Source: Candidatus Krumholzibacteriota bacterium (GTDB lineage Bacteria; Krumholzibacteriota; Krumholzibacteriia; Krumholzibacteriales; WJIX01). From it: a stretch of DNA of 64,000 nucleotides. The notes under the pieces were generated by a model. That model searched no databases. It was given only the letters and a program-made list of their open reading frames with translations, and was not told where the DNA came from. Position 1 is the first letter of the stretch, and each line of letters opens with the position of its first letter. Both the position numbers and the translations under genes were made by a program. The stretch lies in assembly GCA_034520215.1 (NCBI GenBank), contig JAXHNR010000002.1, forward strand, positions 532,642 through 596,641, in the 5' to 3' direction. Of this stretch, positions 32,238-48,513 are shown in pieces.

Positions 32238-32335
32238 TTGTAAATTGAAGCTTTTCCATTTGTGATAATTATATAACAATCTGAGCGTTTTGCCGGGTTA
32301 GAGTTGTAAGGAAAGCTCTATAGACGAAAATAGTG

Positions 32336-32365
32336 TTGACGCAGGCAAAAAACCGCTGATATAAT
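32336..32365 (+). promoter_or_regulatory. Sigma-70 promoter of the DUF2914 gene
   Basis: TTGACG (32336-32341), 18-base spacer and a perfect TATAAT (32360-32365), 75 bases before the ATG. It overlaps a Fur-like operator just downstream. Confidence 0.75.
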
Positions 32366-32368
32366 TCG

Positions 32369-32381
32369 AATGATAATCATT
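32369..32381. promoter_or_regulatory. Fur-family operator
   Basis: AATGATAATCATT, a perfect 6-1-6 inverted repeat matching the core of the Fur box (GATAAT half-sites). It lies 3 bases after the -10 box, on the expected transcription start, which is classic placement for iron-dependent repression of the gene at 32441. Confidence 0.65.
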
Positions 32382-32440
32382 AAAATCAGGAACTTCACGA
32401 CCGGCGTAGTGTGTTTTAAGATTTTTAAGCAAAGGAGAGT

Positions 32441-32851
32441 ATGGTGAAACGTTTTAATATCGCGATTTCTCTTGTTTTCTTATTAACTTTTTTTATGCGG
32501 CCCGCTGAGGGCGGAGATATTCTAAAGGTGGAAGAAATGGTCTTCTGTAAGAATATTGAAAACATGTCGCCTGTGGGGGTTAAAAACCAGTTCTTCGAAT
32601 CAGTGGAAAAACTGTACTGTTTTACCAAGATAGCGGGGGCGCTTGATACTACATCCGTCTATCATATATGGTACTATGACGGCGGGGAGTTAGCCAGAGT
32701 TAAGCTCCCGGTCCGTTCGCCGCTGTGGCGTACATGGAGCTCTAAGAGGATGATCGACAGCTGGGAGGGGAGCTGGAAAGTCGTTGTTACCACACAGGAC
32801 AGCACCGTTATTTCAGAAAAAGAATTTATCTATAAACCGTTAAAGGAATAG
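32441..32851 (+). CDS. Exported DUF2914 protein, probably iron-regulated
   Basis: 136 residues. Signal peptide (AISLVFLLTFFMRPAEG) then a DUF2914-type domain: VEKLYCFTKIAG, VYHIWYYDG, RTWSSKRMIDSWEGSWKVVV. The domain has no assigned biochemical role. AAAGGAGAGT directly precedes the ATG. Perfect -10 promoter with a Fur-like operator upstream suggests expression when iron is low, an informative clue for an orphan family. Confidence 0.82.
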   Translation: MVKRFNIAISLVFLLTFFMRPAEGGDILKVEEMVFCKNIENMSPVGVKNQFFESVEKLYCFTKIAGALDTTSVYHIWYYDGGELARVKLPVRSPLWRTWSSKRMIDSWEGSWKVVVTTQDSTVISEKEFIYKPLKE

Positions 32852-32916
32852 GTCTTTTCATGTAGCTTGAAGATATTCTCATATTAGAAGGGTTAACCTG
32901 AAGCTTTGGAGTAACG

Positions 32917-33117
32917 TTATCCTCCATGAGCGAGATGGAAGACATTAACATCAGAGTTATCTTCAAGGGTATAACTGTCGTACTCTTCAGCGGGGACGAG
33001 TTTTCCATCGACAGTAACAGTTATGAGTGAGTAATTGTATCTCATCTCATCGAGTACGTTCTGAACTGTCATCCCCTTTTTCCATTCCAGTTTGTCTCTG
33101 TTATTTACTATGATCAT
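32917..33117 (-). CDS. ThiS/MoaD-like sulfur-carrier protein
   Basis: 66 residues, beta-grasp fold: MIIVNNRDKLEWKKGMTVQNVLDEM, SLITVTVDGKLVP, ending HLAHGG. The terminal GlyGly is the residue adenylated by a ThiF/MoeB E1 enzyme and turned into a thiocarboxylate. Last of an operon after the split AOR and the ThiF-like gene, its start 1 base from that gene's stop. Likely supplies dithiolene sulfur for the tungstopterin rather than thiamine, from context. Confidence 0.8.
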   Translation of the reverse strand: MIIVNNRDKLEWKKGMTVQNVLDEMRYNYSLITVTVDGKLVPAEEYDSYTLEDNSDVNVFHLAHGG

Positions 33118-33735
33118 TTATTTTTCACCTGGCCGGGTTAGAAGTTCTATTGCTACGTTGGCCTGCATACACGCCACAATAGAGACGCGGGAGGAGCAAA
33201 GACCCATAGATGAATTACTTTCTTCATCTCCGCAGACATATACATTTCCGGACGAATTCACTTTCAGAGAGTTTGTACGGCCGATTCCGGCTAATCCGCT
33301 TCCGCAGATTATTGCTTTGTCCGGATAGGCCGAGGACCACGATTCAATAAGCCAGCGTTTACTTTCAGCTTTGTCAAACCCCTCTATAAGCAGGTCGGCG
33401 TCTTTGAAAACTTCAGGAATGTTTTCGGGCGAGAGTTTTATCACCAGCGGATTTATTATAATATTCGGATTAATGGCCCGGAGATGTTCCGCGAGGGCGG
33501 CTACCTTGATCTTCCCGATGTCGTGCTGAAAGTAATGCTGACGGTTCAAATTCGACTCTTCAACCCTGTCGTAATCAGCCAGAATAAGACTGCCTATTCC
33601 GGCTCTTGTGAGAGCGACCGCGGCGTTTGAGCCAAGCCCGCCGCAGCCGGCTATTCCTACAGTTGATTTTTGCAGTATAGCAGTTGAACGCGGTACATTC
33701 CGCTTGAATATCGAAAGTTGGTCCTTGTTTTTCAT
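33118..33735 (-). CDS. ThiF/MoeB-like E1 adenylyltransferase
   Basis: 205 residues. Rossmann ATP-binding motif VGIAGCGGLGSNAAVALTRA, then ADYDRVEESNLNRQHYF, the conserved Arg/Gln region of E1 enzymes. It adenylates the C-terminal Gly of the adjacent carrier protein. It lacks the CxxC zinc pairs and rhodanese domain of larger MoeB forms; short ThiF-type proteins like this are known. Only 5 bases from the AOR gene upstream, so one operon. Confidence 0.82.
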   Translation of the reverse strand: MKNKDQLSIFKRNVPRSTAILQKSTVGIAGCGGLGSNAAVALTRAGIGSLILADYDRVEESNLNRQHYFQHDIGKIKVAALAEHLRAINPNIIINPLVIKLSPENIPEVFKDADLLIEGFDKAESKRWLIESWSSAYPDKAIICGSGLAGIGRTNSLKVNSSGNVYVCGDEESNSSMGLCSSRVSIVACMQANVAIELLTRPGEK

Positions 33736-33740
33736 TACGA

Positions 33741-35735
33741 TCAGGTTGCTTCTTCAATAATATTTACGAGCTCCGGAAGATCAATTCCAAGTTTCTTCAT
33801 CCTCTCAAGCGTGGGAACGCCGTTTTCATCCCACCCCTTGCGTTTATATGTCGCTTTCATTACCTGATTGTACCGGTCTTCTCTGTAATCACGAAGAACT
33901 TTCATCTTTTCCTCTGTGGATTTGCCTTCGGGATCGTAATCGCATTTTTCGCGCAGCTCTTTGTCGTATCTCTCGGCGCGGGATTCGTATTCTTCCTTTG
34001 TTACGGGACCTACGGCGCGGTACGGAGGAAAATCGTCTTTTTTAGTACCGTAGCCTAGCATCCTGCACAACAATCTCTGCAGCATATGAACCCGTTCGGA
34101 TTGCCCAAGCATACTCGCCTCGTCAAGGGGGCTTCCCGTCATACCCTCGAAGAATTTAAAGAAATCTTCAACGTGTTCTGGTATCTTGGCTGCTTCCTGA
34201 GGTGAATAGTTCTGTGTGCTTGTAGGAACCACATCATTCCAGAGAAGTTTGCAGAGACCGTGGAGCCCGAACCATGTTCTCCACAGGGGATAGTAATACA
34301 GCGCTTCCGCCTTGTCTTCGAAGGAGGGGATCTGGTTATTAACCATATCCATGAAGATAAGCCAGGATTCGTCATGCTGAGGGCCTTTTACCGCCATCGC
34401 GTAACCAGCCTGCTGGGCGAGAGATTCTTTGGTTACATATTCGGAGAATTCCAGACCCTTTGTTTCCATTCCTATATCGGCAAGGAAGTCAGGGTCCGCT
34501 CCAAGTTCATTAATCCATTTTTCTTTAAGCCAGCGGATCCCCTTGCCGAAATCAACACCGAACCCTTTGCCTTCCGCCATTTCGTGGAGGCATTTGAGGA
34601 CTTCATCTGTGGCGCCGAATTTGAGCTCTTTCCCTCCGGTCTCTTTCGTTGTGATAATGCCGTTTTCAAAACACTCCATGATAAAGGCCATGCATGTACC
34701 GGCTGAGATTGTGTCAATTCCGTAAGTGTCGCAGTAAAAATTGAATTCAGCGGCGAAGTCCGCGTCGAAACATCCCATATTAGCGCACGCCGCGGCTGTT
34801 TCATACTCCGGCCCGTCTACAACTACCTTATCTCCCTTGTAGGGACCGGTTTTTATCTCGAAATTATCGATTGTTTTAGAGCAGGCCATCGAGCAGCCCT
34901 TCCAGCAGCCGTCCGGTGAATTCTGGGTAAAATAGTTTGCCTTGAGCATAACCGAGTCGATCCTGTGTGTATCGGGATGTGATCCAAACTTGTAATTGTG
35001 TACGGGAAGAAGATCGTATTCATCCATTACGTCCACAATATTGGCGGTTCCTACTTCTCTCATGCGGCACTGGTTTTCATCGAGCGTTGCCATTTCAGCG
35101 TTGATGCGCATCCCGTAATTTCGAATCATCTTAGGTTTTGCGGGATGGTTCTGATCCTCTTCGATACTGATAGCCTGAGTGGGACAGACATATTCGCATG
35201 AACGGCAGCCAATACAGTGAGGGTCTACTTCTTCAAAGGGCATAGTCATATACTTGTCGATACCTCGTCCGGCAAAATCGAGAATGTTCTCCTGCATGAA
35301 TTCAGCGCACGCTCTCGCGCATCTGCCGCAGAGGATACATGCCTTAGGGTTTTCATCCGTTAGTTCACTTTTATATTTTTCCTTATCTGTTGCTCCGCAA
35401 TCCTTTGCTATCTTCTTAATAGCAGGGACATTAGGCCAGCGTCCAAGGTACATTTCGGCCAGTCTCTTGCGGTGCTTTTTTACCATTTCAGAATCGGTCT
35501 CAACTTTGATCGCGCTTCGCACAGGGTAGTTACAGGAGGTGACAAGTTCTCTTTTGTCTCCGGATATAATTTCGACTACACACAGCCTGCATGTGCCGCT
35601 AGGGGTTAGATCTTTGTGATTACATAATGTTGGAACAGATATGCCGTTTTCCTTCAGGACCTTAAGAAGAAAGGTGTCTTTTTCCACATTAATTTCTTTT
35701 CCGTTTACCGTTATATTTATCTTCTGAGCTGACAT
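33741..35735 (-). CDS. Split AOR, part B: NuoG/HydA-type Fe-S N-terminus fused to AOR catalytic domains 2/3
   Basis: 664 residues from ATG 35735, sharing one base with the previous stop (TAATG, GGAGGTGAT upstream). N-terminus: [2Fe-2S] ferredoxin domain (C38, C49, C52, C68), then two [4Fe-4S] sites (C133-x2-C136-x2-C139-x3-C143; C174-x2-C-x2-C-x3-C184). From ~residue 225 come the C-terminal domains of aldehyde:ferredoxin oxidoreductase (LLPVHNYKFGSHPD; cluster Cys C277/C281/C285 in GCWKGCSMAC; CDTYGIDTISAG). AOR_N is absent; it is in the neighbour. Typical AORs use CxxCxxxC; here the spacing is CxxxCxxxC. Expected to bind tungstopterin with part A and oxidise an aldehyde or reduce an acid; substrate unknown. 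Cytoplasmic. Confidence 0.85.
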   Translation of the reverse strand: MSAQKINITVNGKEINVEKDTFLLKVLKENGISVPTLCNHKDLTPSGTCRLCVVEIISGDKRELVTSCNYPVRSAIKVETDSEMVKKHRKRLAEMYLGRWPNVPAIKKIAKDCGATDKEKYKSELTDENPKACILCGRCARACAEFMQENILDFAGRGIDKYMTMPFEEVDPHCIGCRSCEYVCPTQAISIEEDQNHPAKPKMIRNYGMRINAEMATLDENQCRMREVGTANIVDVMDEYDLLPVHNYKFGSHPDTHRIDSVMLKANYFTQNSPDGCWKGCSMACSKTIDNFEIKTGPYKGDKVVVDGPEYETAAACANMGCFDADFAAEFNFYCDTYGIDTISAGTCMAFIMECFENGIITTKETGGKELKFGATDEVLKCLHEMAEGKGFGVDFGKGIRWLKEKWINELGADPDFLADIGMETKGLEFSEYVTKESLAQQAGYAMAVKGPQHDESWLIFMDMVNNQIPSFEDKAEALYYYPLWRTWFGLHGLCKLLWNDVVPTSTQNYSPQEAAKIPEHVEDFFKFFEGMTGSPLDEASMLGQSERVHMLQRLLCRMLGYGTKKDDFPPYRAVGPVTKEEYESRAERYDKELREKCDYDPEGKSTEEKMKVLRDYREDRYNQVMKATYKRKGWDENGVPTLERMKKLGIDLPELVNIIEEAT

Positions 35736-38700
35736 TATATCACCTCCACTGCGTCGAAGTTGCAGACTTGGCGGCAGATTCCGCATCTCGTGCATTTCTC
35801 GATGTCAATAAAATGTGGTTTCTTTGCTTCGCCCGATATTGCCTCTACGGGGCAGTTTTTAGCGCAGAGAGTACAGCCGGTGCACTTATCCTTGTCTATG
35901 CGGTACGTAACAAGGGCTTTGCAGACTCCGCCGGGGCATTTCCCCTCGTCGATATGTTTCTCGTACTCTTCTCTGAAATACTTGATTGTGGAGAGGACGG
36001 GGTTGGGAGCTGTTCGGCCGAACCCGCAGAGACTGATCTCTTTTACGGTTTGGCCCAGCTCCTTAAGTCTCTCGATATCACCCGCCTTTCCTTCGCCGCC
36101 GCATATTCGTGTCAGTATCTTGTTCAGGTGAAAGAGCCCCTCTCTGCCCGCGGCGCACTTCCCGCAGGATTCATTCATAAGGAAATCAGTAAAATACCGA
36201 GCGGTATCCACCATACAGGTCCTGTCTGACATTACAACTATTCCGCCCGAACCTGTTATTGTTCCTTCTTCCTTTAAAGAATCGAAATCGATCTTTATGT
36301 CAAGTTTGCCCGCAGGCAGAATTCCGCCTGAAGGACCGCCTATCTGAACCGCCTTGAGCTCGCGGCCTTCTGGAATTCCGCCTCCGATATCTTCGATGAC
36401 CTCGCGGAGCGTTGTTCCGAACGGAACCTCCGCCAGTCCCTGATTGTTTATGTCGCCGGAGAGGGAGAGAATCTTCGTGCCGGAGGAGCCGTTAAGGGGA
36501 TTGTCGCTTACGTCGCCTGAACCGATCGATGAAAACCACTTCGATCCCCGTTCGATGATAACCGGAATATTTGCCCAGGTTTCAACATTGTTAAGAACGG
36601 TGGGTTTCCCGCGGAATCCGCGTTCGGCATTGTGGATATATTTAGGTTGAGGTTCGCCTGCGCGTCCGGACATGGAAGTTATAAGAGCGCTGGATTCGCC
36701 GGTTATAAATGCCCCCGTTGCCGTTCGAATTTCAAGATCAAAGTCAAAATCACTGCCCAGTATTCCCTTTCCGAGCAAGCCGTACTCCCTGCACTGGGTA
36801 ATGGCTTTCTTAAGTCTTTCCCTGTCCAGTGTATATGCATTTCTGATATATATGTAACCCTCTTTCGCTCCGAGAGCGAAAGCTCCTATAAGAAGGCCTT
36901 CAATGACTGTGTGAGGGTCGGTCTCGATGATGCTTTTTTCCATAATTGCTCCGGAGATGTTACAGATGATATATATTTCTTCTTTTCTTTCCTCGGCCTT
37001 TTTCTTTGCTGTTTCCCATTTGATTCCGGTCGGGAATCCGCCGCCTCCGCGCCCTCTTATTCCCGAGGAAGTTACTTCATTTCTTATTTTCTCAGGAGTG
37101 CTCTTTTCGAGAGCGTTTTTGAAGGCTTCATAGCCGCCTCGAGCAATGTAGCTGTTAATCCTTTCAGGATCTATAACCCCTTTGTTCCTTAAAGCGACGG
37201 AAAGTTGGTTTTTGAAGAATGGAATATCTTCCATTCTTTCTAATATTTTCCCGCCGCCCGGATCTTTGCGCATGAGGCGATCTAGCTTTTCACCCTTAGC
37301 GGCGCTTTCAACGAGCTGGTCGATATTATTCTCCGCGACATTCTGATAGAACACTCCTTGAGGCTGGACTATGACGATTGGGCCGGCTGAGCAAAGCCCC
37401 ACACATCCGCATTGGGCGGCAGCGAATTCCTTTTCCAGCCCCTTTTCCCTGATTACTTCATCTAATTTTTCTTTTATTTTCAGACTTCCCGCGGCCACAC
37501 ACCCCGAGCACGCGCAGACATTGAATATTGATTTGTACCCGCGGGCCGCGTTATTTTCTCTTTTCGCGATCTTCTTTAGATCTGAGGGTGAGATTTTCTC
37601 CGCCGGAGCGTTTTTATTTTCGGCATAGCTTTTGTTCTCTTTATTTTCTTCTTTATCTGCTTCTTCGAGGAGTTTTTTTACATCCTGAGCTTTTACGTTT
37701 CCATACATTTTCCCGTTTATTTGTACTACAGGCGCCACACTGCATGCTCCGAGGCAGGATGTTCCCTCGAGACTGTATTTTTTGTCCTCTGTCGTCTCGC
37801 CTGCTTTTATTCCGAGAACAGACTCGAAACTTTCAAGTATTCCCTCCGCCCCTTTTACATGACAAGTCGTCCCCATGCATACCTGGATTACTTTCTCTCC
37901 TTTGGGTTCGAGACTGAATTCTTTGTAGAAGCTGGCTATGTGGTAAAGATGAGATTTGGGTTTTCCGGTCATTTCGCAAAGTTTGTCGATAGCGGTTCTG
38001 GAGATATAGTGGAAGCGGTTCTGCAGTTCCCGTAATATTTCTATCGCGTATTCACCGCGGCAGCCCCAGCTTTTGATTATCCGATCTATTTCCTCAAGTT
38101 CGCTTCTGTCTGTCTGTGGAGGACTGTTTTTGGATGCGGCGGCCTCGGCGGCCCTGCTTTTTTGAATACTCCAGCCGGGAATATCAGGTTTCCCTTTTAG
38201 GACAAGGGCTTTTATCCTTTTGTCGCGGAATACAGTTCCTATACCGCCTCGCCCGGCCTGTTTGAGTCTGGCAGTAGCTCTCCTCCAGTCCCAGAAGGAG
38301 AAGTTGAGCACTCCCATGTTGCCGTGCTCGGCCGCTCTTCCTGAAGTTACGCAGGCAATATTTCTTTTGTCCAGTTCATCGTCAGCGTACATCTCGGTGA
38401 GCTCCTCTGCCAGAAGATGTGAATCAATACTCTCAAGGGGGGCTTTCTCAATAGTAATTTCACCTTTTACGGCGTTTATGACGATAATTATTTCTTCTTC
38501 TGATTTGCCGGTCAGGGTTAAGGCGTCAAATCCGGCGAATTTAAGATAAGGCCCGAAATAACCCCCCACGTTACAATCCATAATCGAATGAGTGGAAGGA
38601 GAAACGGCGGTAACCAGGGTCTTGCCGGAGCCGGGAAATGATGCTGTTCCTCCGAGAGGACCCGGAGAAAAACATATACTGTTTTCCGGGCTGTCCCATT

Positions 38701-38929
38701 TTGTCTCAGCGTTTATTTCCTGAAACATAAGCCAGAGGTCAAAACCCTTGCCCCCTGTCCAGAGTTCTTTCATGCGTTCCGATACGGGGTTGATAGAAAT
38801 GTCCTTTTCACCGATATCAATTCTGAGAGTTCTGTTTGAATATCCCCTTTCCAATCTTATTGTTTCAAAGGGAAATTTGGCCAAGAGTTCGTGCGCTTTC
38901 TTTATCTTTGATAGAGATTCTTCCGCCAT
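35735..38929 (-). CDS. Split AOR, part A: AOR_N fused to NuoE-like, NuoF-like and ferredoxin domains
   Basis: 1064 residues. Domains: AOR N-terminal pterin-binding domain (~20-248; NVGGYFGPYLKFAGFDALTL, AGRGGIGTVF); NuoE-like [2Fe-2S] domain (~275-425; C351, C356, C392, C396); thioredoxin-like [2Fe-2S] (~465-545; C472/474/477, C507/509/513); NuoF-like core (~560-985; GRGGGGFPTG at 626); 2x[4Fe-4S] ferredoxin (~1008-1064). In the NuoF part several usual features are gone: the NADExxPG flavin/NADH loop is shortened to CNISGAIM, ICGEETAL reads ITGESSAL, and the SCGKCxxC cluster site has Gly for its third Cys (SCGKCAAG). First gene of the operon; TTTAGGAGG before the ATG. Probably a hetero-oligomeric tungsten oxidoreductase with part B. 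Confidence 0.85.
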   Translation of the reverse strand: MAEESLSKIKKAHELLAKFPFETIRLERGYSNRTLRIDIGEKDISINPVSERMKELWTGGKGFDLWLMFQEINAETKWDSPENSICFSPGPLGGTASFPGSGKTLVTAVSPSTHSIMDCNVGGYFGPYLKFAGFDALTLTGKSEEEIIIVINAVKGEITIEKAPLESIDSHLLAEELTEMYADDELDKRNIACVTSGRAAEHGNMGVLNFSFWDWRRATARLKQAGRGGIGTVFRDKRIKALVLKGKPDIPGWSIQKSRAAEAAASKNSPPQTDRSELEEIDRIIKSWGCRGEYAIEILRELQNRFHYISRTAIDKLCEMTGKPKSHLYHIASFYKEFSLEPKGEKVIQVCMGTTCHVKGAEGILESFESVLGIKAGETTEDKKYSLEGTSCLGACSVAPVVQINGKMYGNVKAQDVKKLLEEADKEENKENKSYAENKNAPAEKISPSDLKKIAKRENNAARGYKSIFNVCACSGCVAAGSLKIKEKLDEVIREKGLEKEFAAAQCGCVGLCSAGPIVIVQPQGVFYQNVAENNIDQLVESAAKGEKLDRLMRKDPGGGKILERMEDIPFFKNQLSVALRNKGVIDPERINSYIARGGYEAFKNALEKSTPEKIRNEVTSSGIRGRGGGGFPTGIKWETAKKKAEERKEEIYIICNISGAIMEKSIIETDPHTVIEGLLIGAFALGAKEGYIYIRNAYTLDRERLKKAITQCREYGLLGKGILGSDFDFDLEIRTATGAFITGESSALITSMSGRAGEPQPKYIHNAERGFRGKPTVLNNVETWANIPVIIERGSKWFSSIGSGDVSDNPLNGSSGTKILSLSGDINNQGLAEVPFGTTLREVIEDIGGGIPEGRELKAVQIGGPSGGILPAGKLDIKIDFDSLKEEGTITGSGGIVVMSDRTCMVDTARYFTDFLMNESCGKCAAGREGLFHLNKILTRICGGEGKAGDIERLKELGQTVKEISLCGFGRTAPNPVLSTIKYFREEYEKHIDEGKCPGGVCKALVTYRIDKDKCTGCTLCAKNCPVEAISGEAKKPHFIDIEKCTRCGICRQVCNFDAVEVI

Positions 38930-39006
38930 CTGAAGGCCTCCTAAAGGCTGGATATCAAAAAAACCTATTGAGACTCTAAATATACAATTTATTATTTCAG
39001 ATATAA

Positions 39007-39035
39007 AGCATAAATTATTTTCTTTGAAAGTTCAA
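39007..39035 (-). promoter_or_regulatory. Promoter candidate of the split-AOR operon
   Basis: TTGAAC (39030-39035), 17-base spacer, TATGCT (39007-39012), about 80 bases before the ATG. It lies inside the divergent region, downstream (minus sense) of the hairpin at 39071-39105. Confidence 0.45.
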
Positions 39036-39070
39036 AGGGGCGCGGCAATTTCCCGCGGGATGATTGGAGA

Positions 39071-39105
39071 AAAACGCCACAGGGCCCGAAGCTCTGTGGC
39101 GTTTT
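39071..39105. terminator. Orphan intrinsic terminator between divergent genes
   Basis: Perfect 12-bp stem AAAACGCCACAG / CTGTGGCGTTTT. The minus strand reads GTGGCGTTTTTCTCC after the stem, a good terminator. No gene ends here: AOR starts leftward at 38929, a NifX-like gene starts rightward at 39305. It may be an attenuator in a leader or an insulator. Another GC-rich hairpin lies at ~39141-39162. Confidence 0.6.
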
Positions 39106-39304
39106 AAGAAAACGTTCTCGTCTTTGTTCTGTTTTATCCTGTTGCCGGGCGCCGGGCAGCAAGATAATCTGCAAAGAGTATTTTAGGTGTGTTTTTTGTC
39201 TTTAAATTCCATTCATTTTGTTATATTCTCTAAGGTGATATTTTAAAGCGATGACGCCAGTTTATTTTCTAACCAAAGGGTTTTCAATAGAGGAAGGTAG
39301 ATCA

Positions 39305-39673
39305 ATGAGAATAGCAATTTCAACGGACGGAAGTCAGGTGGCTCCTCATTTCGGAAGATGCGAAAAATACACGATCTTTGATGTGGAAGATTCAAAAGTC
39401 GAAGCTAAGGAAGTACTAGACAGTCCGGGCCACGCACCGGGCGCTATACCGGCATTCCTTAAGGAAAAGGGATGTACTCTGATTATTGCCGGAGGAATGG
39501 GCGGCAGGGCGAAGGACCTGTTCAGGCAGGCGGATATTGATTGGATAGTCGGTGTAAGAGGAGAAGTAGACGCCGTTATTAATGACTATTTAAGTGACAC
39601 TCTCGTAGTTGGTGAAAGCAGCTGCGAGCATGGCGAAGGCCATGGGGACGGCACTCACGGATGCGGGCACTGA
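39305..39673 (+). CDS. NifX-like iron-molybdenum cofactor-binding protein with His-rich tail
   Basis: About 122 residues from ATG 39305 (GGAAGG before it). FeMo-co biosynthesis domain: MRIAISTDGSQVAPHFGRCE, HAPGAIPAFLKEKGCTLIIAGGMG. The C-terminus is His/Gly/Cys-rich (CEHGEGHGDGTHGCGH), a likely metal-binding tail. Start chosen over an upstream ATG at 39251, whose extra residues do not fit the family. Stands with a sirtuin and another NifX-like gene beside the tungsten genes, suggesting Mo/W or Fe-S handling. Confidence 0.82.
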   Translation: MRIAISTDGSQVAPHFGRCEKYTIFDVEDSKVEAKEVLDSPGHAPGAIPAFLKEKGCTLIIAGGMGGRAKDLFRQADIDWIVGVRGEVDAVINDYLSDTLVVGESSCEHGEGHGDGTHGCGH

Positions 39674-39691
39674 TCGATCACGGAAGTCTTC

Positions 39692-40438
39692 ATGTTTAAG
39701 ATGATGAAAAAAGCGGCTGAGATGATAATGAATGCCGGGAGGGTTACCGCTTTTACCGGAGCGGGGATTTCTGTTGAAAGCGGAATTCCTCCCTTCAGGG
39801 GCGAAGGTGGGTTGTGGAATAAGTATAATCCGGTTCTTCTCGATATCAATCATTTCCGCATGAACCCCTTCGAATCATGGACACTGATAAAGGAAATATT
39901 CTATGATTTCTTCGGTGAAGCCGCTCCGAACAGAGCCCACTACGGCCTCGCTGAAATGGAGAAAATAGGCCTTCTCGGCGCGATAATAACTCAGAATATA
40001 GATAACCTTCATCAGGTCGGCGGCAGCAGGAATATCTTTGAATTCCACGGAAATTCAAGAAAGCTTGTCTGCGTAGCCTGCGGCGAAAAATATTCAGTAG
40101 ATCAGGTCAGTTTGAATGAACTCCCGCCTGAATGTCTAAGTTGCGGAGGTGTGCTGAAGCCTGATTTTATCTTCTTCGGCGAGCAGATACCGGAACCCGC
40201 CAGGACCAATTCTTTCAGGGAAGCCGACATATCTGATCTTTTTATACTTATCGGAACTACGGGCGAGGTTATGCCCGCGTGCGCGATTCCCTATATAGCC
40301 AAGGAAAATGGCGCCGGAATTATTGAGATAAACACTAATAAGTCGAGTTACACGGACAGTATTACAGATATCTTCTTTCAGGGAAAAGCGTCTGAAATGA
40401 CCGCCAGTCTTCTGGAGGAGTTGAGAAAGAATCTGTAG
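39692..40438 (+). CDS. cobB: Sir2-family NAD-dependent protein deacylase
   Basis: 248 residues. NAD-binding AFTGAGISVESGIPPFRG, TQNIDNLHQVGGS, catalytic His in FEFHGNSRKLVC, zinc Cys pairs CVACG and CLSCGG, and FFGEQIPE. It removes acyl groups from lysines using NAD. Arg/Tyr of class III desuccinylases (AxxYxxR) is not evident. The start is 18 bases after the NifX-like gene. Confidence 0.9.
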   Translation: MFKMMKKAAEMIMNAGRVTAFTGAGISVESGIPPFRGEGGLWNKYNPVLLDINHFRMNPFESWTLIKEIFYDFFGEAAPNRAHYGLAEMEKIGLLGAIITQNIDNLHQVGGSRNIFEFHGNSRKLVCVACGEKYSVDQVSLNELPPECLSCGGVLKPDFIFFGEQIPEPARTNSFREADISDLFILIGTTGEVMPACAIPYIAKENGAGIIEINTNKSSYTDSITDIFFQGKASEMTASLLEELRKNL

Positions 40439-40602
40439 AGATTTATTTTAAGAAAATAAGAAAGAGATTTTATAAAAAAATTTTGCTTTTTTCAGCGTTA
40501 AAGGATAGCATGCTGTTAAAGGAATCCGCGAATTAGCCTCAGATGAAATTCGCGGAAAAGGATTTCTTTGAACACTATAAAGGTAAAGGGGGATTTAGAA
40601 GA

Positions 40603-41058: not shown

Positions 41059-41059
41059 G

Positions 41060-41088: not shown

Positions 41089-41142
41089 AAAAAAACTGTC
41101 AACGGGTTTTCGTTACCAAATTATGAAAGGGGTTTGAAGAGG

Positions 41143-42129
41143 ATGAGGAAAATAGGGTTAACTGTCATTTCGTTAATTATGGCTGTTCAATTCGTTTCCT
41201 GCTCCTGCGGCGATGAAGGATCCGCCCGGAAGAGGCTTATTATATTTCACGCGGGCAGTCTGTCTGTTCCTTTCGCGGAGATTGCCGAGAGGTTTGAAGA
41301 AGAAAATCCTCAGGTAGAAGTAAATATGGAGGCGGCCGGAAGCAGAACCTGCGCGCGCAAGATTTCAGAACTCGGCAGAAGATGCGATGTTATAGCGTCG
41401 GCGGATTACGCGGTTATCGACGCTCTTCTTATACCCGATTTCGCGAGCTGGAACATTAAATTCGCGTCTAATGAAATGGCAGTAGCTTTCAGGGATGATT
41501 CAAGAGAGGCGGATACTATAAATCGGAGTAACTGGTATGACATACTGCTAAAGGATGATGTTACTTTCGGGCGATCAGATCCTAATGCTGATCCGTGCGG
41601 TTACAGAACAGTCCTCACTCTGAAACTGGCCGAGAAGTTCTACGGCGAAAAAGGACTCAGCGAGAAACTTCTGGAAAAAGATACTGAGTTTATGAGACCT
41701 AAAGAGACTGATCTTCTGGGACTTCTAGAATCGGGTACTATTGATTACATGTTCATATACCGGTCGGTAGCCAGACAGCACGATTTGCGGTTTATCACCC
41801 TGCCTGATGAGATAAATTTAAAGGAATCTGAACTTAAAGATTATTACGCGTCCTCTTCCGTTAAGATTTCCGGGAAAAAGCCTGGAGAATTTATAGAACG
41901 AAGGGGCGCTCCCATGGTTTACGGTGTGACTATACCGGATAATGCTCCGTCACCCGGTCTCGCCCTCGAGTTTGTAGAGTATCTGCTCGAAGATTCAAAG
42001 GGACAGAAGATTATGAGCCGAAACGGCCAGCCGTCCGTAGTTCCGTCGCCGGCTGAGAATTACGAAAATATCCCGGACGAACTTAAGGCATTCGTTCTCC
42101 CCGCGGAAAAGATTGTGGGAGAAGAATGA
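41143..42129 (+). CDS. wtpA: Tungstate/molybdate ABC transporter substrate-binding lipoprotein
   Basis: About 328 residues from ATG 41143 (GAAAGGGG upstream; TTG 41134 is in frame). Lipoprotein signal with FVSC, then LIIFHAGSLSVPFAEIAERF, the hallmark of WtpA/ModA oxyanion binders (Ser contacts the anion), plus GRSDPNADPCGYR and the EFVEYLLEDSKGQKIM C-terminal region. WtpA-type proteins bind tungstate tightly, which fits the AOR. Stop overlaps the permease start (ATGA). Confidence 0.87.
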   Translation: MRKIGLTVISLIMAVQFVSCSCGDEGSARKRLIIFHAGSLSVPFAEIAERFEEENPQVEVNMEAAGSRTCARKISELGRRCDVIASADYAVIDALLIPDFASWNIKFASNEMAVAFRDDSREADTINRSNWYDILLKDDVTFGRSDPNADPCGYRTVLTLKLAEKFYGEKGLSEKLLEKDTEFMRPKETDLLGLLESGTIDYMFIYRSVARQHDLRFITLPDEINLKESELKDYYASSSVKISGKKPGEFIERRGAPMVYGVTIPDNAPSPGLALEFVEYLLEDSKGQKIMSRNGQPSVVPSPAENYENIPDELKAFVLPAEKIVGEE

Positions 42130-42917
42130 TGAGTAAGATCGAACCCGTCCATCTGCTTTTTTCGATTCTAGGCGGCGTTGTTCTGCTGTTTATAATAGCT
42201 CCACTCGCGGGTATTTTTGTAAATACTTCCACCGAGGAATTCATCAGTGCCGCCCGTGACGGTGAAGTGACCGGGAGCATCTGGCTTACCCTGTCAGCTT
42301 CGATGGGCGCCACACTTATATTTGCCGCGGGTTCGGTTCCTCTGGCCTATATTCTAGCCCGCAAGGATTTTCCGCTTAAAGGACTTGTCAACTCGATTGT
42401 AGATCTGCCTATAGTTATTCCTCACTCGGCGGCGGGTATCGCTCTGCTCGGTGTTCTTTCAGGCGGCAGTCTCTTCGGCGGAGCCGCCGAGAGAATCGGG
42501 ATAAAATTCATCGGTACTCCGGCCGGCATTATGGCCGGAATGGCTTTTGTGAGCGTACCTTTCCTTATTAATTCCGCGAGGGACGGGTTCGCTGCGGTAC
42601 CCGAGGTCTATGAAAAGGCGGCTATGAATCTTGGCGCTGGCCCCTTTAGAGTTTTTCTGACGATCTCTCTGCCTATAGCGTGGCGTTCTGTTGTATCGGG
42701 ACTGGTATTAATGTGGGCGAGGGGGATGAGTGAATTCGGCGCTGTTATAATTATAGCTTATCATCCTATGATCACCCCTGTTCTTATATATGAGAGATTC
42801 GGGGCCTTCGGCCTGAAATACGCACGTCCTGTATCTGCCGTATTTCTGATAGTCTGTTTTATTTCCTTCATTCTGCTTAGGAGTATTGGCGGCGGGAAGA
42901 ATTATGTTAAGAGTTAG
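42126..42917 (+). CDS. wtpB: Tungstate/molybdate ABC transporter permease
   Basis: 263 residues with about six TM helices and the binding-protein-dependent permease motif EKAAMNLGAGPFRVFLTISLP (EAA loop, contacts the ATPase). Start overlaps the previous stop by 4 bases and its end overlaps the ATPase start by 14 bases, so translation is coupled. Confidence 0.9.
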   Translation: MMSKIEPVHLLFSILGGVVLLFIIAPLAGIFVNTSTEEFISAARDGEVTGSIWLTLSASMGATLIFAAGSVPLAYILARKDFPLKGLVNSIVDLPIVIPHSAAGIALLGVLSGGSLFGGAAERIGIKFIGTPAGIMAGMAFVSVPFLINSARDGFAAVPEVYEKAAMNLGAGPFRVFLTISLPIAWRSVVSGLVLMWARGMSEFGAVIIIAYHPMITPVLIYERFGAFGLKYARPVSAVFLIVCFISFILLRSIGGGKNYVKS

Positions 42918-43965
42918 TGATCTGTCGAAAAGTATCGGTGAATTTAATTTAAGAGATGTTTCTTTTGAAGCGGCTCCGGGCGAATATTTTGTTCTTCTCG
43001 GCGCCAGCGGTGTGGGAAAGTCGGTACTTCTTGAGATAATCGCGGGGATATACCTCCCTGACACCGGAAGGATTAAACTCGAAGGATTGGATATAACATC
43101 TCTGAAGATACAGAAAAGAGATGTCGGAATAGTTTTTCAGGATGGCGCGCTGTTTCCTAATCTTACCGTGGAGGAGAATGTGTCATACGGATTGAAATGC
43201 CTGGGGAAAAACAGCAGAGAGATAAAAAGTACGGTAAATGATCTGGCTGAGGAGTTGGGGTTTTCATCATTGATGCCGAGGAATCCGGCGACACTCTCAG
43301 GCGGAGAGACGCAGAGAGTCGCGCTTGCAAGAGCTCTCGCCAGAACCCCCCGTTGTCTTCTTCTCGATGAACCCCTTTCATCTCTGGACAGAGGGGCCAG
43401 GTCCGAAATAAGATCTCTTCTCAGGAACCTCAAGAGGAGGGGGATGACGGTAGTTCACGTAACTCACGATTATGAAGAAGCGTTATCGCTGGCTGACACG
43501 GTGGGTATTATGGAAGAAGGTACCATTGTTCAGACCGGCAGTCCGGATAATGTCTTTACAAATCCCGCTTCAGGCTTTGTCGCTGATTTTGTGGGTATCA
43601 GAAATTTTTTCCGCGGAAGACTTACCGGAGCAACTTCGAAGGATGAGCAAGTCTCGGAATTTATATCTGACGGAATAACTTTCAATGTTCTGACAGATAG
43701 GGAGCCCGGAAAAGGGAATATTGTAATCAGAAGCGAGGATTTAACACTCTCTTCGAGACCGGGTTCAACAAGCGCCATGAACACTTTTCGAGGCAGGGTA
43801 GTTGATCTTTTTCCCGTCAGGCTGGGGATTGAAGTGATAATTGATGTGGGAGTCGAACTGGCGGCCCTCGTAACCAGAGGGTCGGCGGAAAGAATGCGAG
43901 TCGAGAGGGGAAGAGAGCTTTTTGTCAGCGTCAAAGCGAGCGCGGTGAAGTTTATCAGGATTTGA
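42904..43965 (+). CDS. wtpC: Tungstate/molybdate ABC transporter ATPase
   Basis: 353 residues from ATG 42904 with GGCGGGAAG upstream. Walker A LGASGVGKS, Q-loop VFQDGALFP, signature LSGGETQR, Walker B CLLLDEPLSSLD, switch His VVHVTHDYEEA. The C-terminal ~70 residues form a TOBE-like oxyanion-binding domain that can feedback-inhibit transport (NTFRGRVVDLFPVRLGIEV). Confidence 0.9.
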   Translation: MLRVSDLSKSIGEFNLRDVSFEAAPGEYFVLLGASGVGKSVLLEIIAGIYLPDTGRIKLEGLDITSLKIQKRDVGIVFQDGALFPNLTVEENVSYGLKCLGKNSREIKSTVNDLAEELGFSSLMPRNPATLSGGETQRVALARALARTPRCLLLDEPLSSLDRGARSEIRSLLRNLKRRGMTVVHVTHDYEEALSLADTVGIMEEGTIVQTGSPDNVFTNPASGFVADFVGIRNFFRGRLTGATSKDEQVSEFISDGITFNVLTDREPGKGNIVIRSEDLTLSSRPGSTSAMNTFRGRVVDLFPVRLGIEVIIDVGVELAALVTRGSAERMRVERGRELFVSVKASAVKFIRI

Positions 43966-43987
43966 CTTGCGGGTTGAGAGTGTGAGT

Positions 43988-44368
43988 ATGAATGAATTGA
44001 ATGTGAAACCCGGAATGAGGCTTTTTCTTCAGAGTAAGGATGGAAAAGGACTGATTGGCGACGGGAGGTTCAAGCTCCTGAAAGAAGTCAGAGACACTGG
44101 ATCAATTATGAAGGCCGCGGAATCACTGGGCAGGGGTTACAGAAAAGCATGGGAGGATATAAGGAAAGTAGAGGAAGGGTTCGGCCGCGAAGTAGTGGTC
44201 AAGAACAGGGGGGGCAGTGAAGGCGGTTCAACTCATCTTACGGAATTTGGATTAAGATTGATTGAAGCCTGGGAAGAATACAGAAAGGATATTTCATTAT
44301 ATCTCGAGGATTCATTCAGGCGTAATATAAAAGGGCTTATCAGAAAAGGAGGAAAAAATGGGCAGTGA
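43988..44368 (+). CDS. ModE-like molybdate/tungstate-responsive regulator (HTH domain)
   Basis: About 126 residues. LysR-type winged HTH of ModE: FKLLKEVRDTGSIMKAAESLGRGYRKAWEDI, then REVVVKNRGGSEGGSTHLTEFG. It lacks the two molybdate-binding (TOBE) domains of E. coli ModE; short forms exist in many bacteria. It may act on the box at 41035-41058. TTG at 43967 is an alternative start. Confidence 0.85.
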   Translation: MNELNVKPGMRLFLQSKDGKGLIGDGRFKLLKEVRDTGSIMKAAESLGRGYRKAWEDIRKVEEGFGREVVVKNRGGSEGGSTHLTEFGLRLIEAWEEYRKDISLYLEDSFRRNIKGLIRKGGKNGQ

Positions 44369-44546
44369 AGAGATAGACAGAGCTGTTATTGAAGCTTCTT
44401 TTGATATTGAAGGAAAGAAGAAGATAAAATGCGCAGCGGCGCTTGATCTGGCTGAAAAACACAAGGTCAGCCCCCGCGAAATAGGAAAGAGCTGTAATAG
44501 AACGGGGGTTAAGATTACAGAGTGTCAGCTGGGACTTTTTAAATGA
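44358..44546 (+). CDS. Small conserved protein with CQLGLF motif in the Moco operon
   Basis: 62 residues, ATG after AAAGGAGG, overlapping the ModE-like gene by 11 bases. Helical, with KIKCAAALDLAEKHKVSPREIG (HTH-like) and ending KITECQLGLFK. Two Cys (C25 in KIKCAA, C57) could bind metal. Proteins with this end occur near Mo/W cofactor genes; no function is known to me. Spacing and ribosome site make it a real gene. Confidence 0.7.
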   Translation: MGSEEIDRAVIEASFDIEGKKKIKCAAALDLAEKHKVSPREIGKSCNRTGVKITECQLGLFK

Positions 44547-44613
44547 TAAGAAATAAGAAGAGGGGAAAACCAAGGTTTCTCGGCTTGGGAAAAGAGTATG
44601 GAGAAATAACACG

Positions 44614-45051
44614 ATGAGGACTGTAGTAATTTCAGGAGCCAGTTCCAATGTGGGCAAAACAACCCTCGCGCGCAAGATCGCGTCCATTCTGCCCGGAGCT
44701 GTGTTTATAAAAATAGGTCACGGAACGGAAAAGAATGGCGTTGATAATGTCTATTATCACATTGGAATTTCCTTTGAGAGAATAAGGCGGGAAAACAGAA
44801 ACGCCTCATTTCTTGTAATTGAGAGCAATACTATTCTTAAAGAAATGACTCCCGATTGTGTTATCTATCTTCCCGGAGAAAATCCCAAACCCTCCGCCGC
44901 CGCCGCTCGGGAAAGCGCGGATATTATAAGAGGTGAAAAAGTTGATTTTGAAACCGCGAGACGCCTAAAGAAAGATCTTGCTGTTTCCGAAACTGTCTTG
45001 ATTGATATTATAAAAGCTTCCGAAGCCTTGTTCTGTGAACGGGATGATTAA
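44614..45051 (+). CDS. MobB-like P-loop NTPase of the cofactor operon
   Basis: 145 residues. P-loop VISGASSNVGKTTLA at the start, then a MobB-like small GTPase fold (NASFLVIESNTILKEM). MobB assists attachment of GMP to molybdopterin, but here no MobA is present, so it may instead serve cofactor insertion. Stop overlaps an ATG of the next gene. Confidence 0.7.
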   Translation: MRTVVISGASSNVGKTTLARKIASILPGAVFIKIGHGTEKNGVDNVYYHIGISFERIRRENRNASFLVIESNTILKEMTPDCVIYLPGENPKPSAAAARESADIIRGEKVDFETARRLKKDLAVSETVLIDIIKASEALFCERDD

Positions 45052-45065
45052 TGAAAGGAAATAAT

Positions 45066-46247
45066 ATGGAAATGATATCCTTTGAAAAGGCTTTTCAGTT
45101 AATGATGAATAGCGCGAAACTTCTTGGAAAAGAAACTGTTTCGCTGAATGAAGCTTCGGGCAGGGTTCTATTCGAGGATATCAGATCGGATGTTGATATG
45201 CCACCGTTTAACAAATCCGCTATGGACGGGTACGCGTGCAGGTCCGCGGATATTTACAGCCCCCTTGAGGTTATTGAAACGATTCCCGCGGGGAAAGCTC
45301 CGGAGAAGGATATCGGAGAGGGGGAGTGTTCAGAAATAATGACTGGAGCGGTTGTGCCTGAAGGCGCCGACCGGGTTGTTATGGTTGAGCATACAGAGGT
45401 TGCCGGAGGAAGAGTTGTAGTAAAGATCAAAGGTGGAGGGAAGAATATCTGCTACAGGGCGGAAGATGTCGCGAAAGGTGATATTGTGCTCAAAAAGGGG
45501 ACTGTGATTGGAGCTTCCGAGATTGCGGTTCTTGCGGCGGTGGGCTGCGTTGAGGTTCCTGTTTCGAAAACCCCGGTTTTAGGGATTATAGCGACAGGAA
45601 GTGAACTCGTCGAACCGTCCAGTGAACCGGGACGGGCGAAGATTAGAAACAGCAACAGTTATCAACTTGCCGCTCAGTCGAGAAACGCCGGATTTGAACC
45701 GCGCTATTTTGGTATCACAGAGGACACACCGGAAGCTATCGGCGATACTATAGACCGTTATCGAGGCAGCGTTGATCTCTTTCTGCTTTCAGGGGGTGTG
45801 TCGATGGGCGAATTCGATTTTGTCCCGGGTGTTCTAAAAGACAGGGGTTTTAAACTGCTCTTTGAAAAGGTGGCGGTCAAGCCAGGCAAACCGACTGTTT
45901 TTGGAAAAAGCAAGGATGATTTCGTTTTCGGTCTTCCCGGGAACCCGGTTTCGACATTTGTTATATTTGAATTGTTCGTTAAACCTTTCTGTTTTGCTCT
46001 AGAGGGGGCTAAGTGGGAACCTCGGCGCGTGAGCGCCCGGTTAAAAGATAAGATTGAGCGCCGGAAAACAGGCCGTATTTCACATATTCCCGTAAAGCTG
46101 ACTGGAAGTGGTAAGGTTGAAATTGTTGAATATCACGGATCAGCTCATATTCACGCCTATACGGCGGCTGATGGTTTTATAGCCGTTCCCGCGGGTACCG
46201 GGAAAATAGAGGCCGGCGAAACAATAGAGGTTACATTGATAAATTAA
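45066..46247 (+). CDS. moeA: Molybdopterin molybdenumtransferase MoeA
   Basis: About 393 residues from ATG 45066 (AAAGGAAATAAT before it). DMPPFNKSAMDGYACRS, GECSEIMTGAVVPEGADRVV, LGIIATGSELVE, LLSGGVSMGEFDFVPG and KPGKPTVFG are MoeA signatures. MoeA inserts Mo or W into adenylated molybdopterin. Some W-users carry separate MoeA paralogues; only one is seen here. Confidence 0.93.
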   Translation: MEMISFEKAFQLMMNSAKLLGKETVSLNEASGRVLFEDIRSDVDMPPFNKSAMDGYACRSADIYSPLEVIETIPAGKAPEKDIGEGECSEIMTGAVVPEGADRVVMVEHTEVAGGRVVVKIKGGGKNICYRAEDVAKGDIVLKKGTVIGASEIAVLAAVGCVEVPVSKTPVLGIIATGSELVEPSSEPGRAKIRNSNSYQLAAQSRNAGFEPRYFGITEDTPEAIGDTIDRYRGSVDLFLLSGGVSMGEFDFVPGVLKDRGFKLLFEKVAVKPGKPTVFGKSKDDFVFGLPGNPVSTFVIFELFVKPFCFALEGAKWEPRRVSARLKDKIERRKTGRISHIPVKLTGSGKVEIVEYHGSAHIHAYTAADGFIAVPAGTGKIEAGETIEVTLIN

Positions 46248-46259
46248 TGGAGATTCAGA

Positions 46260-47075
46260 ATGCTCAGGGACAATTTCGGAAGAAAGATCGACTACCTTAG
46301 GATCTCAGTGACGGATAAATGCAATTACAGGTGTGTGTACTGTATGCCCGAGGAAGGTGTTAAGCTGAAGAGGCACGAGGAGATACTGTCTTTTGAGAAG
46401 ATAACAAGGATTGCCGGGTGCGCGGCCCGTCTAGGTATAGTGAAAATAAGACTCACGGGCGGAGAACCGCTTGTACGAAAAGATGTTGAAAAGCTTGTAG
46501 CCATGCTTGCTCATTGTGAAGGGATCGATGAACTCGTAATGACAAGCAATGGTTCTCTGCTTTCAGAGGAAAAGGCTTTGGATTTAAAAAGAGCTGGATT
46601 GTCCAGAATTAATATATCCTTAGACACTCTCGACGGCGATGAATTCAAGAAAATAACAAGAAGAGGCAATATAGAAGACGTTCTTTCCGGAATAGAAGCC
46701 GCGAGAAGCGCCGGGCTGGATCCTGTTAAGATAAATATGGTGATATTCGAGGATACTTCGCACGATGATATTAAGGCAATGCGTTCTTTCTGCCAGAGAA
46801 AGGGATTAAAGCTTCAGACGATAAAACAATTTTCACTTTATAACAGAGAGGGAAAAATCAGCTTTCCCTTTGTCTTTGACAGGCCGCAGCCCTGCAGTTT
46901 ATGCAATAAAATAAGACTTACAGCGGACGGGTTATTAAAACCCTGTCTTTTGTCAAATTCTGAAATCAGAGTTGATTGGAACGATATAGAGAAAAGCCTG
47001 AAAAGGGCTGTAAGAGAAAAACCTCAGAGAGGCACCGTATGTGATAACAGAATGATGTCGCAGATAGGAGGATGA
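46260..47075 (+). CDS. moaA: GTP 3',8-cyclase MoaA, short form
   Basis: 271 residues. N-terminal radical SAM cluster CNYRCVYC, RLTGGEPLVRKD, and C-terminal cluster CSLCNKIRLTADGLLKPC (CX2CX13C), ending in the required GlyGly (MSQIGG). Roughly 50 residues shorter than typical MoaA, with the gap between KLQTIKQFSLYN and the C-terminal cluster. First enzyme of pterin synthesis, with MoaC. Confidence 0.9.
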   Translation: MLRDNFGRKIDYLRISVTDKCNYRCVYCMPEEGVKLKRHEEILSFEKITRIAGCAARLGIVKIRLTGGEPLVRKDVEKLVAMLAHCEGIDELVMTSNGSLLSEEKALDLKRAGLSRINISLDTLDGDEFKKITRRGNIEDVLSGIEAARSAGLDPVKINMVIFEDTSHDDIKAMRSFCQRKGLKLQTIKQFSLYNREGKISFPFVFDRPQPCSLCNKIRLTADGLLKPCLLSNSEIRVDWNDIEKSLKRAVREKPQRGTVCDNRMMSQIGG

Positions 47076-47167
47076 TATTTGCCGGCTTTGAAAAGTTTCT
47101 GAATTTGTCTTCCTTCTGTAAACGGCGGTTTTTTCAGGGCACCAAGTTATTAAGAGAGGAAACGAGA

Positions 47168-47623
47168 ATGGATTTTACTCACATTGATTCAGAGGGGAAA
47201 GCGAGAATGGTTGATATCTCCGGCAAACCGGTCCAGAAGAGAACCGCTGCTGCTTCAGGAGTTATAGTTGCCGGCAGTAAGGTTCTGGACTTATTAAAGG
47301 CGGGGTCTTTGAAGAAGGGGGATCCTCTCTCAGCCGCGCGAATCGCGGGAATTACGGCCGCCAAGAAAACCGGCGATCTTATCCCGCTTTGTCATCCTCT
47401 GCCTCTTGAAAATGTGGATGTTGATTTTGAGGTCGGAAATGACAGGGTCGTAATCAAAGCTACCGCGGTAACAACCGCGAAAACGGGGGTGGAGATGGAG
47501 GCGCTTACGGCTGTCACTGCCGCCGCGCTGACGATTTATGATATGTGTAAGGCTGTAAGTAAGGATATGGTTATCGGCGAAATTAAACTCATAAGTAAAA
47601 GGAAGGAAGAGCCGGATGAGTGA
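47168..47623 (+). CDS. moaC: Cyclic pyranopterin monophosphate synthase MoaC
   Basis: About 151 residues from ATG 47168 (AGAGGAAACGAG before it); the 32 upstream codons to 47072 do not belong to the family. FTHIDSEGKARMVDIS, KTGDLIPLCHPLPLENV, GVEMEALTAVTAAALTIYDM and KDMVIGEIKL match MoaC throughout. Converts the MoaA product to cPMP. Confidence 0.94.
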   Translation: MDFTHIDSEGKARMVDISGKPVQKRTAAASGVIVAGSKVLDLLKAGSLKKGDPLSAARIAGITAAKKTGDLIPLCHPLPLENVDVDFEVGNDRVVIKATAVTTAKTGVEMEALTAVTAAALTIYDMCKAVSKDMVIGEIKLISKRKEEPDE

Positions 47624-48056
47624 AGGAAGATTCAAGGTTGTGTCCGTTAATATTTCCCCCGGCAGGGGAACGGGGAAAAGGCCGGTTGGAAGAATCGTTC
47701 TTAAAAGTGAATATGGTATTGTCGGTGATGCTCACGCGGGGAGTTCGCGAAAACAGGTGTCATTTTTAGCTATGGAGGACATTGACAGAAAGAAAGAGGA
47801 ATTTTCAGGATTGAACCCCGGTGATTTTGCCGAGAATATTACTACTGAGGGGATTGACCTTCTATCCTTTCCCGTTGGAGCGAGATTTAATATTGACGAA
47901 GTAGAATTTGAGGTCACACAGATAGGAAAACCCGGGAAAGGGCACACCATTAAGGGATTAAGAACTGAGCCTCTTCTTGTAAAGAGAGGATTATTCGCCA
48001 GGGTGATCAAGGGGGGTGTTATTACGGATGAAAGTATTGGTTCTTACGATATCTGA
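47616..48056 (+). CDS. MOSC-domain protein
   Basis: 146 residues. MOSC fold with IVGDAHAGSSRKQVSFLA and LNPGDFAENITTEGIDLLS; GxFxENI is the Moco-binding signature. Such small MOSC proteins occur in Moco operons, often beside mogA, and may carry or sulfurate the cofactor. The start overlaps moaC by 8 bases and the end overlaps mogA by 29 bases. Confidence 0.85.
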   Translation: MSEGRFKVVSVNISPGRGTGKRPVGRIVLKSEYGIVGDAHAGSSRKQVSFLAMEDIDRKKEEFSGLNPGDFAENITTEGIDLLSFPVGARFNIDEVEFEVTQIGKPGKGHTIKGLRTEPLLVKRGLFARVIKGGVITDESIGSYDI

Positions 48057-48495
48057 CAGGGCTTCAGAGGGTATCTACAGTGACAGATCCGGCCCAGCCG
48101 TAGAAAGCGTCCTTGTGAATAGTATATCAGGGGCTGAAGTAGACAGACAAATAGTACCGGATGAAAAAGTAGAGATCAGAAAAGCCTTGAGTGCTAATCT
48201 TGACAAAGATGTAATTATAACTACAGGCGGGACAGGTATCGGCCCGCGTGATGTTACGCCCGATGTTACGAGCGCCTTCTGTGACAGACTAATCCCCGGC
48301 ATAGCGGAATATTTAAGAATAAAATCCCTTGAAGAAACCTTAAATGCCGTTCTTTCAAGAGGGGTTGCCGGGATCAAAGATAACACGATTATTATTAATC
48401 TTCCGGGATCTGTAAAAGGAGCGAGTTTCTGCGCTGAACTGATCCCGGACATTTTAAAGCATTCGTTAGCTATGCTGCGGGGCGGTGGGCATTAA
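48028..48495 (+). CDS. mogA: Molybdopterin adenylyltransferase MogA/MoaB
   Basis: 155 residues from ATG 48028 inside the MOSC gene (GGGGGG upstream). VLTISDRASEGIYSDRSGP, VIITTGGTGIGPRDVTPD and INLPGSVKGA are diagnostic. It adenylates molybdopterin before metal insertion by MoeA. Last gene of the operon; the convergent arsC-like gene ends 18 bases away. Confidence 0.92.
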   Translation: MKVLVLTISDRASEGIYSDRSGPAVESVLVNSISGAEVDRQIVPDEKVEIRKALSANLDKDVIITTGGTGIGPRDVTPDVTSAFCDRLIPGIAEYLRIKSLEETLNAVLSRGVAGIKDNTIIINLPGSVKGASFCAELIPDILKHSLAMLRGGGH

Positions 48496-48513
48496 ACGAA
48501 GAGGAACTCTGCG

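Follow-up and report, generated by a model that had tools for sequence, protein, structure and literature searches.

The window, a stretch of 64,000 nucleotides from a Candidatus Krumholzibacteriota genome, carries on its reverse strand an operon that encodes two large multidomain proteins, here called A and B, followed by a ThiF-like adenylyltransferase and a ThiS/MoaD-like protein (Table 1). The stop codon of A and the ATG start codon of B overlap by one base (TAATG), thiF lies 5 bases after B, and thiS follows thiF directly. A frame of 684 residues from position 35795 represents a longer start of B that lies inside A. On recheck, the coordinates and lengths that a preliminary description of this DNA had given for A and B proved correct, and thiF and thiS were found in the operon where it had placed them. 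An Rfam search of positions 32000-49000 returned no match.

Table 1. Features of the operon and of the adjoining metal-supply genes, in window coordinates
Feature	Position	Strand	Details
ThiS/MoaD-like protein (WorX-like)	32917..33117	-	same operon, directly after thiF
ThiF-like adenylyltransferase	33118..33735	-	same operon
Protein B gene	33741..35735	-	664 aa; WorA/HydA-type N-terminus + AOR C-half
AFOR_C (AOR domains 2 and 3)	33783..35108	-	B residues 210-651
WorA/HydA-like N-terminus	35151..35735	-	[2Fe-2S] C38, C49, C52, C68; two [4Fe-4S] C133-C143, C174-C184
Protein A gene	35735..38929	-	1064 aa; AOR N-half + NuoE + HydB/WorB module
2x[4Fe-4S] ferredoxin domain (2x Fer4)	35744..35902	-	A C-terminus, residues 1010-1062; eight Cys intact
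NuoF/HydB FMN-NADH domain + SLBB + N3 region	35951..37168	-	A residues 588-993
Degenerate N3 [4Fe-4S] motif	36134..36169	-	SCGKCAAGREG vs SCGKCxxCREG; third Cys is Gly928; common to L002
Degenerate FMN/NADH loop	36941..36961	-	NISGAIM in place of NADEGDPGAFM; common to L002
Second thioredoxin-like [2Fe-2S] domain (HydB N-terminus)	37250..37531	-	A residues about 467-560
NuoE/HydC-like (2Fe-2S_thioredx)	37661..38086	-	A residues 282-423; four-Cys [2Fe-2S] site intact
AFOR_N (pterin-binding domain 1 of AOR)	38192..38833	-	A residues 33-246; Pfam E 2e-46
WtpABC tungstate transporter	41134..43965	+	probable accessory, outside the enzyme
ModE-type regulator, one further gene, MoeA, MoaA, MoaC, MOSC, MogA/MoaB	43967..48495	+	metal-pterin supply

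The two large proteins share the domains of one aldehyde:ferredoxin oxidoreductase (AOR) between them, and the profile searches bear out the earlier claim of a split by reciprocal fusion. Pfam finds AFOR_N (IPR013983) in A, where AFOR_C has no match, and AFOR_C (IPR001203) in B, where it spans profile positions 5-385 of 385 (E 2e-83) and AFOR_N has no match; both family domains exceed the Pfam cut-offs, but on two chains, and neither chain combines them as the large subunit WorL does. The same searches place NuoE and NuoF domains in A and Fer2_4 in B. Across the whole genome (2.6 Mb, 97% complete), the single AFOR_N match and the single AFOR_C match are those in A and B, and the two profiles detect no second, complete AOR.

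Within the NuoF/HydB part of A, Pfam locates Complex1_51K at residues 619-789 and NADH_4Fe-4S at 908-992. Because a second thioredoxin-like [2Fe-2S] domain is also present, the C-terminal 600 residues of A correspond to a whole HydB/WorB-type subunit; their matches among solved structures are HydB and WorB (including 9mqx chain B), and Foldseek returns both proteins from an AlphaFold single-chain model of A that is itself poor (pLDDT 67, with the AOR part largely below 50). Protein B starts with Fer2_4 and two [4Fe-4S] motifs, and the His-Cys3 cluster site is absent from this N-terminus. Among solved structures, this N-terminus is closest to WorA (9mqx_A), which scores 122 bits by phmmer and 164 by profile, with HydA below it (100 and 131 bits). 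Foldseek with the AlphaFold model of B pairs the C part with FOR, WorL (9mqx_D) and AOR and the N part with WorA; the two parts of B thus find their counterparts, WorA and WorL, within a single solved complex, 9mqx.

Scanning a genome collection with B yielded 80 loci, among which L002-L048 are of the split type and L049-L081 are one-chain members of the same subfamily. The split layout therefore occurs at 47 public loci, some of which end at contig ends, in about 15 phyla including one archaeon, with the reservation that these are mostly metagenome bins whose individual taxon labels may be wrong. The labels comprise Krumholzibacteriota, Aminicenantes/Acidobacteriota, Cloacimonadota, Eiseniibacteriota, Myxococcota and other deltaproteobacteria, Bacillota, Bdellovibrionota, Sumerlaeota, Elusimicrobiota, Planctomycetota, Coatesbacteria, Armatimonadota, Fermentibacterota, KSB1 and a Thermoplasmatota archaeon. 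L028 and L029, labeled Clostridia and Candidatus Dojkabacteria, have identical AOR sequences, so at least one of these two bin labels must be wrong. Within Krumholzibacteriota, about 17 of the 80 genomes searched have a split AOR. No relative of the N half was found in viral contigs.

Wherever enough sequence is present, the gene order is AORN / NuoE / HydB / HydA(N)-AORC, and the loci differ in how these units are fused. The minimal locus L043 encodes a free AORN of 269 residues and a HydA(N)-AORC protein, with no NADH module within its 18 kb; AORN, NuoE and HydB are three separate genes in L046 and L047; AORN is fused to NuoE with HydB apart in L008, L016, L018, L021, L045, L048 and others; and all three form one chain in the window and in more than a dozen other loci. 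The cluster motifs of B were found nearly everywhere they could be scored among the split loci, the few misses being due to contig ends, to open frames that run too long and so displace the region examined, or to alternative spacings, and these were not scored as losses. An apparent natural fusion of A and B in G015, a frame of 1785 residues, was rejected as a high-GC open frame, A being a separate gene of 1066 residues there and B lying in another frame; the apparent fusions in L019 and L035 are artifacts of the same kind.

Genes for metal and pterin supply follow nearby, as had been noted before: WtpABC adjoins the operon, and MoeA, MoaA and MoaC are among the genes beyond it. Against the NCBIfam models, WtpA passes its cut-off, and WtpB and WtpC fall short of theirs. 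Since WtpABC lies next to the operon in the window and also in five relatives (L003-L007), the metal is most likely tungsten; as pointers to bound tungsten and two pyranopterins, WtpABC, MoaA, MoaC, MoeA and ThiF/ThiS are indirect. The thiF and thiS genes are near-universal neighbors, and a recent classification of tungsten-containing oxidoreductases (WORs) regards the ThiS-like WorX and ThiF as cofactor-biosynthesis proteins (PMC13328260). Beside the split loci no conserved gene points to a substrate; what recurs is thiF and thiS, together with WtpABC/ModE/MoeA in Krumholzibacteriota only. The MoaA-like protein (271 aa, 46260-47075, +) is short, with a partial Mob_synth_C match and a MoaA TIGR score just below the cut-off.

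The closest known system is the electron-bifurcating WorABCSL (Wor-Bfu) of Acetomicrobium mobile (9mqx), a Class IV WOR (PMC13328260) in which the same three electron subunits serve an AOR-family chain: an A-type subunit with [2Fe-2S] and two [4Fe-4S] clusters that lacks His-Cys3, a HydB-like and a NuoE-like subunit. In that complex WorL is a whole chain, linked via the polyferredoxin WorS, whereas here WorL is halved and each half is fused to the module. Neither a separate WorL nor a WorS, the two marks of Class IV, was found: among the open reading frames of 31236-40941, the operon has no other gene of ferredoxin type. In Type 1 Bfu enzymes such as HydABC [FeFe]-hydrogenase, Nfn-Bfu/Stn and Fdh-Bfu, the catalytic domain sits at the C-terminus of the BfuA-like subunit, and Wor is given only as Type 2, with separate subunits (PMC9304861); the BfuA-like B resembles Type 1 in part, bearing AOR domains 2-3 only, with domain 1 on the BfuC-BfuB chain A. 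The one-chain members of the subfamily (Anaerosolibacter, Thermotalea, Alkaliphilus, Bacteroidales, Bipolaricaulota, Lokiarchaeota) are about 57-60% identical to the AOR part of B and 43-57% to that of A, and have no adjoining NADH module. Pyrococcus furiosus AOR (1aor) and FOR (1b25) resemble the C part of B in fold and in the matched residues at about 20% identity, and are single chains with a ferredoxin partner.

We regard A and B as an AOR/WOR-family tungsten oxidoreductase whose chain was split once by a WorCBA/HydCBA-like module, at the border of domain 1 with domains 2-3, and which in the window probably uses ferredoxin as acceptor; judged from the sequence evidence, this reading has a probability of roughly 0.75. 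Protein A would provide the pterin-binding domain 1, and B would add domains 2-3, which hold the catalytic residues and the AOR [4Fe-4S] cluster. Upon binding of A to B, domain 1 and domains 2-3 would close on the W-bispterin, an aldehyde would be oxidized at the tungsten, and the electrons would pass to the AOR cluster of B and then via its [4Fe-4S] and [2Fe-2S] clusters to A. Where relatives have kept the module intact, bifurcation would then deliver these electrons to NAD+ (via FMN) and ferredoxin, as in WorABCSL. By this analogy such relatives probably bifurcate; the A. mobile enzyme is reported to reduce NAD+ and ferredoxin only together (PMC9304861). In the lineage of the window, the NuoF part may serve mainly as a scaffold.

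The state of the NADH module bears on the strongest rival of this reading, namely that the window encodes a split AOR fully capable of NAD(H)-linked bifurcation, in which FMN and N3 function despite their changes. The preliminary description had spoken of an AOR plus an NADH-oxidizing module; one AOR is indeed divided over two chains with complementary site residues, but a module in working form is not supported, both the FMN/NADH loop and the N3 cysteine being lost. The loop of relatives, NADEGDPGAFMDR, is reduced to NIS-GAIMEK in the window, with residues gone between Asn657 and Gly660. In complex I this loop (Nqo1 Asp94, Glu95 and Glu97) contacts FMN and NADH. The nearest relative, L002, an independent assembly, has both defects and has in addition lost the NuoE [2Fe-2S] cysteines. 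Compared with the Bfu core, a BfuBC with an FMN site and six clusters, the window lacks the acidic loop and the third N3 cysteine. A second HydB-like gene in the same genome, of the Stn/Nfn-like kind, has kept its loop. On the other side, A retains the [2Fe-2S] sites of NuoE and HydB, the GRGGGGFPTG and NNVET motifs and the 2x[4Fe-4S] tail; the whole loop is present in 23 relatives; and NuoF is under purifying selection (dN/dS about 0.10; 0.096 in its core), so the domain is no dead remnant and may have retained a role for flavin or cluster. On balance we hold a working bifurcator in the window to be unlikely, and ferredoxin as sole acceptor becomes likelier with the damage to the FMN/NADH site in this lineage.

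Decay of the module extends beyond the window. Of 37 scored loci, 14 have a lost or altered loop or a truncated module. State counts on the tree require at least 7 changes, a deleted loop being unlikely to return, while the AOR residues persist in every scored locus. L035 and L038 have lost NuoF almost wholly. In these two and in L034, L009, L012, L013, L014 and L041 most of the NADH module is truncated and an N3-like SCGxCxxCREG is kept on the AORN chain, which suggests that one cluster may keep an electron-transfer role in split AORs with a truncated module. As to the second HydB-like gene of the window's own genome (L104; G000:C1, around 417000-422000), it lies near a gene with an FAD/NAD(P)-type domain and a molybdopterin-domain match, and together these (L102/L104) are probably a bifurcating transhydrogenase of the Stn/Nfn type.

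It is far less probable still that the halves rebuild no AOR at all, and that AORN and AORC serve only for structure or electron transfer in a Bfu-type complex that acts on another substrate. In its favor count the placement of the domains on different chains, the lack of a conserved substrate gene nearby, and the pterin motif DxxGLC, which reads GLHGLC in B. The glycine, however, replaces the aspartate in all 69 subfamily members and thus also in the one-chain members, where Asp489 is likewise Gly; it is therefore no consequence of the split, although the substrate may differ from an ordinary aldehyde. Against the rival stand the site residues, matched by alignment to solved AORs. In B, the cluster ligands C277, C281, C285 and C495 occupy the positions of PfAOR Cys288/291/295/494, and T230, E310, Y433 and H454 those of Thr243, Glu313, Tyr427 and His448, positions named for aldehyde-oxidizing members in PMC13328260; in A, the conserved AFOR_N residues are K103, N120, R227 and K237. 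The cluster and catalytic positions of B are invariant in all 38 split loci checked, as are the N-half positions of Arg76 (here Lys), Asn93 and Arg182 (PfAOR numbering). The AOR halves are the slowest-evolving stretches of both chains: comparison of the window with L002 gives a dN/dS of 0.049 (N half) and 0.041 (C half), which indicates strong purifying selection on both, against 0.10-0.19 in the HydB parts (0.096 in the NuoF core), these values being only rough because dS is high. Retention of thiF/thiS and the tungstate genes, and the minimal L043 with only AORN and HydA(N)-AORC, argue in the same direction.

We give next to no credence to a fault of assembly or sequencing, or to one gene that broke in two as it decayed; only the unusual layout speaks for these, since 47 loci from many assemblies share the split layout, which can therefore be neither chance nor assembly error, and since the AOR halves have a dN/dS of 0.04-0.05 and A and B overlap start to stop.

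For the split tungsten oxidoreductase that we favor, the placement of domain 1 on A and domains 2-3 on B means that the W-bispterin site could only be completed where the two chains meet, and the sequences indicate that a tungstopterin site is most likely built across a subunit interface, given a heterodimer and tungsten as the metal.

Split and one-chain relatives are separated by a single change on the tree (FastTree 0.94; IQ-TREE quick SH-aLRT 78); with the C half alone, this division was not recovered. The root of the split group shifts position with distant outgroups, so that fission followed by one re-fusion has to be considered as well; fission is nevertheless the simpler start, because all other AORs are one-chain. 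The fused AORN-NuoE-HydB state needs five changes, and the N half was joined to NuoE and HydB step by step. With an AOR half at either end of the order hydC-hydB-hydA, the arrangement resembles a cassette inserted at the interdomain point of an AOR. We see an even chance that one such insertion made the site obligatorily two-subunit, and that the split and its tether were kept, in the manner of a ratchet, while the NADH function decayed repeatedly, also in the lineage of the window, so that a lost function left a permanently split enzyme.

This is not a new kind of enzyme: its parts, its chemistry and its partners are the ones known from bifurcating WORs, and it is the split that sets it apart. 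The earlier statement that known AORs are one chain agrees with the papers searched, in which AOR/WOR large subunits are single chains throughout, and with a PDB search in which each AOR/WOR catalytic chain found is a single chain. A split AOR is not described in the literature searched, a coverage that leaves aside most subscription journals and bioRxiv, and the consulted portions of a review of tungsten enzymes (PMC12096430), of the 2026 WOR classification (PMC13328260) and of a paper on Bfu enzymes (PMC9304861) describe no split catalytic chain. The 2026 census required both domains in one sequence (PMC13328260), and would therefore have missed the split type. If the enzyme works as proposed, a tungsten cofactor site is assembled across a subunit interface, and it would have to be explained how two chains coordinate the insertion of the cofactor; the natural series from free AORN through AORN-NuoE and AORN-NuoE-HydB to decayed modules would likewise offer a test of the gain and loss of the flavin branch in bifurcating complexes.

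Several further genes surround the operon. A radical SAM/SPASM protein (31236-32237, +) adjoins it, as one does in L002 and L039, and matches the model of the tungsten-oxidoreductase rSAM maturase too weakly to be assigned to it (34 bits, cut-off 380). Between the operon and WtpABC, two NifX/NafY-like proteins of the dinitrogenase Fe-Mo cofactor family (39251-39673 and 40543-40941, +) flank a Sir2-type deacylase. Farther out, at 28616-30976 (-), lies a PorU-like (C25-type) peptidase of 786 residues with a T9SS-type C-terminal sorting domain.
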